64,000 nucleotides of DNA. It comes from Yoonia sediminilitoris. GTDB taxonomy: Bacteria > Pseudomonadota > Alphaproteobacteria > Rhodobacterales > Rhodobacteraceae. Location of the stretch: the NCBI RefSeq assembly GCF_003058085.1, contig NZ_QBUD01000001.1, positions 682,001 to 746,000 of the forward strand, written 5' to 3'. Shown here one piece after another: positions 13,002-14,380 of the stretch. A model generated the notes under the pieces. It did no database searches. It was not told where the DNA came from and was given only the letters and a program-made list of their open reading frames with translations. The position numbers and the translations under genes were made by a program. The number at the start of each line of letters is the position of its first letter. The first letter of the stretch is position 1.

Positions 13002-13015
13002 TTGATCCATATCAA
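13002..13015. promoter_or_regulatory. FNR/FnrL-type box upstream of hemA
   Basis: TTGATCCATATCAA is a perfect match to the FNR consensus TTGAT-N4-ATCAA, with no mismatch in either half-site. It lies 141 bases before the hemA start codon. In Rhodobacter species, FnrL controls hemA in response to low oxygen, so the same control is likely here. Confidence 0.85.
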
Positions 13016-13156
13016 TGTTTCACGGAGTGTTCACATCTAGTCATGTCGCCAGAGCGACAGTTTGTAGCGTATTGCCCGAAGCAGAATGACTCTATATGAC
13101 GCTTAGAACGATTCAAAACACGACGGTGTTTTGTGAGTTGGTGAGAGGAAAGACTG

Positions 13157-14380
13157 TTGGACTATACCGCGAAGCTAGATGTTGCACTGGACCGTTTGCA
13201 TCAGGAAGGACGCTACCGGACCTTTATCGATATCGAACGCAAGCGCGGTCAGTTCCCGCATGCCACGTGGCGCAAGGAAGATGGATCTGAGGCGCCGGTG
13301 ACGGTCTGGTGCGGCAATGATTATCTGGGCATGGGTCAACATCCTGCCGTGCTTGCCGCGATGCATGAGGCGATTGACGCAACCGGTGCAGGCTCGGGCG
13401 GGACACGCAATATTTCCGGTACAACCGTCTATCACAAACAGCTGGAAGCCGAATTGGCCGATCTGCACCGTAAAGAGGCGGCGCTGCTGTTTACCTCTGC
13501 CTACATCGCAAATGATGCCACTTTGAGCACACTTCCAAAACTTTTTCCGGGTCTGATTATCTATTCTGACGCGCTGAACCATGCGTCAATGATCGAAGGC
13601 GTGCGCCGCAATGGCGGGGCCAAGCGGATTTTCCGCCATAACGATCTGGACCATCTGCGCGAACTTCTGGCAGCTGACGATCCTGAGGCGCCAAAGGTGA
13701 TCGCGTTTGAATCGATCTATTCGATGGATGGTGATTTCGGACCCATTGAACAGATATGCGATCTGGCCGATGAATTTGGCGCACTGACCTATATCGACGA
13801 AGTCCATGCCGTGGGCATGTATGGCCCGCGTGGTGCCGGTGTCGCCGAGCGTGACGGCCTGATGGGCCGTATCGACATCATCAACGGCACCTTGGCCAAG
13901 GCTTATGGCGTGATGGGTGGCTATATTGCGGCATCTGCAAAAATGTGTGACGCCATAAGGTCTTATGCGCCGGGTTTCATCTTTACAACGTCGCTGCCTC
14001 CTGCGATTGCCGCGGGTGCTGCGGCGTCAGTGGCGCATCTCAAGCTCGACCCGTCCCTGCGCGATCAGCACCAGACACAGGCCAAGACGCTGAAGCTGCG
14101 GCTCAAGGGGTTGGGGCTGCCGATTATCGACCATGGCAGCCACATTGTTCCGTTGATCGTGGGTGATCCGGTGCATACCAAGGAACTGTCGGATCTGCTG
14201 CTTTCAGACTTTGGCATTTACGTGCAGCCTATCAATTTCCCCACTGTGCCGCGTGGCACAGAACGGCTGCGTTTTACGCCGTCACCCGTACATGGACCGC
14301 TGGAAATGGATGCGCTGGTTGGCGCGTTGGACAGCCTTTGGTCCCATTGTGCGCTCAATCGAGCCGATCTCGCCGGTTAA
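13157..14380 (+). CDS. hemA: 5-aminolevulinate synthase (C4 pathway)
   Basis: HemA condenses succinyl-CoA and glycine in the first committed step of tetrapyrrole synthesis in alphaproteobacteria. The 407-residue PLP enzyme shows the glycine-rich [12 protein letters not shown] (about 79-90), [12 protein letters not shown] with the PLP-ring aspartate, and the Schiff-base Lys248 in NGTLAKAYG, numbered as expected for the family. Translation appears to begin at TTG 13157, which follows GAGAGGAA at good spacing and gives the family N-terminus (M)DYTAKLD; no in-frame ATG fits. A perfect FnrL box upstream predicts oxygen control, and the TTG start may lower the expression level. Confidence 0.97.

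Follow-up and report, generated by a model that had tools for sequence, protein, structure and literature searches.

A candidate control region combining FnrL- and Irr-type sites upstream of a TTG-started hemA in Yoonia sediminilitoris

An exact FNR-type box located upstream of a hemA gene that begins with TTG raises the question of which signals set the output of this gene, and of whether its start codon contributes. We addressed this question in a 64,000-nucleotide stretch of Yoonia sediminilitoris DNA (the window), together with the remainder of the genome (4.67 Mb, 49 contigs) and a genus set of 56 genomes, in 54 of which the start of the window-type hemA could be read. We interpret the region as the control region of a housekeeping hemA, in which FnrL would act on one promoter (P1), Irr on a second (P2), and a selected weak start codon on translation; the probability of this reading is estimated at roughly 0.6. 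The elements at its two ends are:

13002..13015, unstranded: FnrL (FNR) box TTGATCCATATCAA, an exact match, within one mismatch at 51 of 54 genus hemA loci
13038..13043, + strand: predicted -10 of the FnrL-dependent P1, with T at +36 and A at +37 from the box start and a start predicted at ~13050
13143..13149, + strand: likely ribosome binding site GAGAGGA, from the sequence, 7 bases before the TTG
13157..14380, + strand: hemA, 5-aminolevulinate synthase, TTG start, from TIGR01821 and the alignment of relatives

The sequence-only reading had placed an exact FNR consensus 141 bases before hemA, and this placement is accurate: TTGATCCATATCAA reproduces the TTGAT-N4-ATCAA pattern of FnrL-activated (class II) promoters, the gap to the TTG extends from 13016 to 13156, and a pattern search of the 64 kb returned no other exact TTGATNNNNATCAA. 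Genome-wide, 24 exact boxes were found versus 0 with the reversed pattern. Fifteen of these 24 were inspected: a mechanically called open reading frame enclosed 6 of them and lay downstream of 8 others, and the remaining one had none nearby, indicating that some exact matches are no promoter site. Across the 54 genus hemA loci, mismatches to TTGATNNNNATCAA numbered zero in 19, one in 32, two in 2 and three in 1; given this retention and the empty reversed control, the box at hemA is not a chance occurrence. The relaxed pattern TTGAYNNNNRTCAA was present with at most one mismatch at 90 of 110 loci, comprising 30 from the genus and the best 80 named loci from other genera.

The further statement that FnrL control of hemA is known in Rhodobacter is supported by documented binding in R. 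sphaeroides, where hemA (RSP2984) carries the FnrL box TTGATccttATCAA in ChIP-chip data (PMC2908626) and is bound by FnrL in ChIP-seq, PrrA also acting there (PMC4263372). The title of Fales et al. 2002, cited in the references of PMC2908626, describes two promoters, both FnrL-regulated, and FnrL at hemA has also been predicted comparatively (PMC4999443). The hemA transcript of an R. sphaeroides fnrL mutant showed no significant difference (PMC4263372), and in R. capsulatus FnrL was reported to exert no direct control of hemA (PMC4634722). Since FnrL at hemA is already known in R. sphaeroides, the FnrL-box part of the present locus is ordinary; the promoters are alike in having this box upstream of hemA. 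They differ in that no Irr box is described at R. sphaeroides hemA in the material available, whereas the present locus has an ICE-like box on a second promoter and a TTG start.

A class II FNR activator typically binds with its box centered about 41.5 bp before the transcription start, which is the standard FNR position. With this centering, the A of the -10 is expected about 37 bases after the box start. Spacing was examined at loci with a box within one mismatch of the relaxed pattern and at least 60 bases after it, an intake of 51 of 54 genus loci and 61 of the best 80 other-genera loci before near-duplicate removal. Of the 36 non-redundant genus loci, 31 had an A at +37, the background A frequency being 0.20 (binomial p ~5e-16 at an assumed 0.22, with loci treated as if unrelated). 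The base preceding it was C in 20 of the 36 and T in 11, so the P1 -10 of the genus is weak; TA at offsets 35-37 was found in only 12 of 36 loci, the window sequence itself having TA. In other genera, drawn from the best 80 loci, TA fell at these offsets in 46 of 59 non-redundant loci; other windows of equal width averaged 5.4, with 9 as the highest count. As judged from this spacing, the FNR box at hemA has class II activator geometry, with a predicted start near 13050.

A related arrangement is found in Dinoroseobacter shibae, where FnrL activates the hemA genes Dshi_1182/Dshi_2190 and where an FNR-type site precedes the start of the gene named hemA3 by 41.5 bp, one case of this spacing (PMC5398030). 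It differs in that hemA3 and the regulator gene dnrE are divergently arranged there, and Irr is not mentioned in the available portion of that paper (PMC5398030).

The regulator is encoded in the same genome, where the sequence-only reading had advised looking for it: fnrL scored 382 bits against NF045989 (cut-off 300) and immediately precedes ccoN, an exact box lying in the gap between the two genes; the protein combines the cluster cysteines of the N-terminal CSECPIRHRAVC with an ETVSR helix. The proposal that low oxygen raises hemA expression through FnrL is therefore upheld in part: the presence of fnrL, the class II spacing and the documented R. sphaeroides binding speak for it, and the direction of regulation at this locus is one that we infer. 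Among the genus genomes, five (G013, G029, G030, G034 and G037) yielded neither an FnrL match nor ccoN. Assembly gaps are a possible cause, since fnrL and ccoN adjoin each other in the window genome and completeness is below 90% for three of the five assemblies.

The region between P1 and the ribosome binding site contains a second set of elements:

13054..13068, + strand: GCGACAGTTTGTAGC element, candidate PrrA/RegA half-sites, conserved in the genus
13070..13077, + strand: -35 region of P2 (TATTGCCC), a conserved block with TTGCCC
13093..13098, + strand: -10 of P2 (TATATG), conserved CTATATGA; predicted start ~13105
13103..13117, unstranded: Irr/ICE-like box TTAGAACGATTCAAA, overlapping the predicted P2 start
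13114..13133, + strand: leader hairpin CAAAACAC-GACG-GTGTTTTG, with folding support and weak or absent covariation

The GCGACAGTTTGTAGC element may be a PrrA/RegA site. A PrrA/RegA-type response regulator gene is present on L148 (NF033791, 315 bits, cut-off 250), and the element is conserved; a site of this kind would be a degenerate GCG inverted repeat, and PrrA is described as lacking a strong consensus (PMC4263372). The GCGRC element lay 50-57 bases after the box start at 45 of the 48 genus loci having both, and 24-26 bases after it at 17 of 34 such loci from other genera (from the best 80). At the other-genera loci with the shorter spacing, TTTGTA of the GCGRC element meets the P1 -10. The distance between GCGACAGTTTGTAGC and the FNR box thus differs by about 30 bases between genera. 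An action of FnrL on P2 by helical phasing was also considered and dropped, as the spacing varies.

The ICE box has the consensus TTAGAA-N3-TTCTAA. The sequence at 13103-13117 agrees with it at 11 of 12 defined positions, its right half being one base off the palindrome. Within the genus, a box within two mismatches of TTAGAANNNTTCTAA was present at 46 of 54 loci, in every case 54-66 bases before the start codon, and more symmetric boxes, such as the near-palindromes CTAGAATAATTCTAA and CTAGAAAGGTTCTAG, occupy the same place in divergent members. Eight of the 54 loci lacked a box within two mismatches, including that of G020 despite its Irr, and in other genera four of the best 80 loci passed the test within 90 bases. 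In the window genome, TTAGAANNNTTCNAA occurred at 5 sites (8 strand hits, the reversed control giving 2), and the looser YTAGAANNNTTCNAR showed no enrichment (11 hits versus 14 in the reversed control). Of the four TTAGAANNNTTCNAA sites away from hemA, one precedes mbfA, one an nfu-like gene, one an iscR-like gene followed by a suf-type operon, and one katG, which has an oxyR-like gene as its divergent neighbor. Scores above curated cut-offs were obtained for katG and mbfA; those for the iscR, nfu and oxyR assignments fell short, and the suf genes were identified by eye. These four loci (L154, L155, L156 and L157) make up a candidate Irr regulon. The irr gene itself (L139:1411-1872; NF045678, 206 bits, cut-off 150) encodes an HPHF motif, and irr exceeds the cut-off in 54 of 56 genus genomes.

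The ICE-like sequence resembles the boxes of the R. sphaeroides Irr regulon (mbfA, ccpA and isc-suf P3), in which the mbfA transcript has its 5' end within the box (PMC3413700, PMC6956336), the position also predicted for the P2 start. The bound isc-suf site fits TTAGAA-N3-TTCTAA, and its core, TTAGAAATATTCTAG, from an Irr-bound promoter inside iscS (PMC6956336), recurs in the present genome about 1.3 kb after the iscR-like site. R. sphaeroides Irr bound this one isc-suf promoter and not two others tested (PMC6956336). It was judged not to lower heme synthesis at iron limitation, hemB and hemH having been measured, and hemA is outside the two genes with predicted boxes, the word having 0 occurrences in the available text (PMC3413700). 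In Bradyrhizobium, Irr couples heme synthesis to iron through repression of hemB (cited in PMC3413700), whereas the candidate target here is hemA, with an adjoining FnrL site. The literature searched describes no Irr box at hemA in Rhodobacteraceae; an earlier prediction in the 2006 iron-regulon study of Rodionov et al. is possible.

Downstream of P2, the hemA leader is likely to form a hairpin. Single-sequence folding of genus leaders gave a mean z of -1.64, with 35 of 46 loci below -1, compared with +0.12, -0.45 and +0.25 for three control stretches (5, 17 and 3 of 54 below -1). The stem sequences vary across the genus leaders. RNAalifold predicted no pairs on the 46 non-redundant leaders, nor on the 32 holding ATTCAA (14 dropped), and an Rfam search returned one match at E 1.3, far under the gathering score. 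In a subset of 12 leaders picked for shared stem length, 93% of cells were paired and one of five measures, the covariation score, was clearly above shuffles (5/500). In an ungapped-stem test that took the box as its anchor, p fell below 0.05 for 12 of 39 leaders (7 of 46 without the anchor); the window leader gave p 0.71, its own stem being offset from the box anchor. It is because these alignment-based nulls stand beside the folding support that the hairpin is graded as likely and no higher.

The coding frame is that of 5-aminolevulinate synthase (TIGR01821, 666 bits, cut-off 339, in a profile search), with named relatives in Rhodobacteraceae/Paracoccaceae. An in-frame TGA four codons upstream of the TTG at 13157, with no ATG, GTG or TTG in between, forces this codon as the start; together with the alignments of relatives, which begin at the same codon, and the spacing of GAGAGGA, this confirms the proposed TTG start. 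It is no local peculiarity, since a non-ATG start is the rule for hemA in the genus: the 54 starts comprise 42 GTG, 12 TTG and 0 ATG. R. sphaeroides HemA starts with ATG. Among the best 80 loci from other genera, 53 start with GTG, 15 with TTG and 9 with ATG, three being ambiguous. On a FastTree tree built from 110 loci, of which 107 have a resolved start, at least 18 start-codon changes are required; counted separately, ATG versus non-ATG requires 7. In this tree, 30 genus loci group with one Aliiroseovarius-labelled MAG (31 rows, support 96), and the next grouping adds Loktanella and Cognatiyoonia loci (35 rows, support 86). The conservation of the non-ATG start makes translational tempering, as suggested in the sequence-only reading, more plausible. 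A search of the literature found no description of an obligatory non-ATG hemA start.

The role of this hemA copy can be approached through its paralogs. The window genome contains pufLM, and the organism is therefore probably an aerobic anoxygenic phototroph. Two further hemA groups, at about 57% and 61% identity, are labelled hemA2 and hemA3 here; 20 of 33 other hemA2 hits and 17 of 21 hemA3 hits were sampled. All 38 sampled starts are ATG (20/20 hemA2, 17/17 hemA3 and the hemA2 of the window genome). All 33 pufLM-bearing genomes of the genus had a hemA2 hit (that in G022 being a fragment), as did 1 of the 23 without pufLM (G040). The hemA2 of the window genome, a second ALA synthase gene at L151:11237-12451 on contig 2, lies in a puh/acsF-type photosynthesis cluster, beside an acsF-like gene (to which Pfam assigned only Rubrerythrin), a DUF3623 gene that we read as puhE, and puhA, an arrangement matching one published for roseobacters (PMC3176799, PMC6052148). 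Upstream of hemA2, 0 of 20 sequences had an FNR box within one mismatch and 0 of 20 an ICE box within two; this says little, as the hemA2 of the window genome closely follows puhE, as it would inside an operon. Upstream of hemA3, the corresponding counts were 1 of 17 for an FNR-type box and 0 of 17 for ICE. At the window-type hemA, 30 of the 32 genomes with pufLM and 21 of the 22 lacking it retained a box within one mismatch; G022 and G035, where this hemA was not found as a full copy, are omitted. A function of the box in serving bacteriochlorophyll is not favored by its retention in the genomes that lack pufLM. Because the box is kept without photosynthesis genes and phototrophs carry a separate hemA, the window copy probably serves heme.

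Three other explanations bear on parts of this reading. Only the FnrL box may matter, with the ICE-like sequence being core promoter or part of the hairpin and binding no Irr; the asymmetry of TTAGAACGATTCAAA, the overlap of its right half with one hairpin arm and the lack of a reported hemA role for R. sphaeroides Irr in the available text of PMC3413700 point this way. We nevertheless regard it as unlikely, as the other four TTAGAANNNTTCNAA matches precede genes connected with iron, Fe-S or peroxide, among them mbfA, a known target of Irr, and the boxes of divergent genus members are more symmetric at the same position. It is more improbable still that another CRP/FNR-family protein reads the FNR box, alone or together with FnrL. 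An FnrL-like paralog without the N-terminal cysteines is encoded at C4:229867, CrpK binds upstream of R. sphaeroides hemA (PMC4263372), and four of the five genomes without detected FnrL keep a box within one mismatch at hemA; yet the HTH_Crp_2 matches in those genomes are partial and reach at most 32 bits, save a 50-bit match in G013, and thus reveal no better reader there.

The conserved GTG/TTG start might also be a neutral inheritance and no translation brake. The translational effect is one that we infer, and ATG starts do occur at 9 of the best 80 other-genera loci. This explanation appears doubtful in view of the interchange of GTG and TTG within the genus while ATG is at 0 of 54 loci, the number of changes required on the tree, and the uniform ATG of the same-genus paralogs.

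According to the preferred reading, with FnrL on P1 and Irr on P2, Fe-S-loaded FnrL would bind 13002-13015 at low oxygen as a class II activator and drive transcription from ~13050, and P2, a putative sigma-70-type promoter, would supply a basal transcript from ~13105. When iron or heme is short, Irr would bind the ICE-like box over the P2 start and block this promoter, so that no tetrapyrrole synthesis would be begun without iron, and the selection-kept GTG or TTG start would hold translation low. A broader proposal, to which we give slightly less than even odds, is that hemA across the genus integrates oxygen (FnrL, P1) and iron or heme (Irr, P2) with a selected weak start and perhaps the hairpin in setting heme supply, phototrophs using a separate, ATG-started photosynthesis-cluster hemA for pigment precursors.

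Heme and bacteriochlorophyll synthesis are both entered through ALA synthase. If FnrL and Irr do act jointly on a single promoter region, this would explain how these bacteria match heme supply to both oxygen and iron. The conserved GTG/TTG start also lends itself to a clean test of selection on a start codon. If the reading holds, the Irr wiring of hemA in Rhodobacteraceae and the obligatory non-ATG hemA start would both be new.
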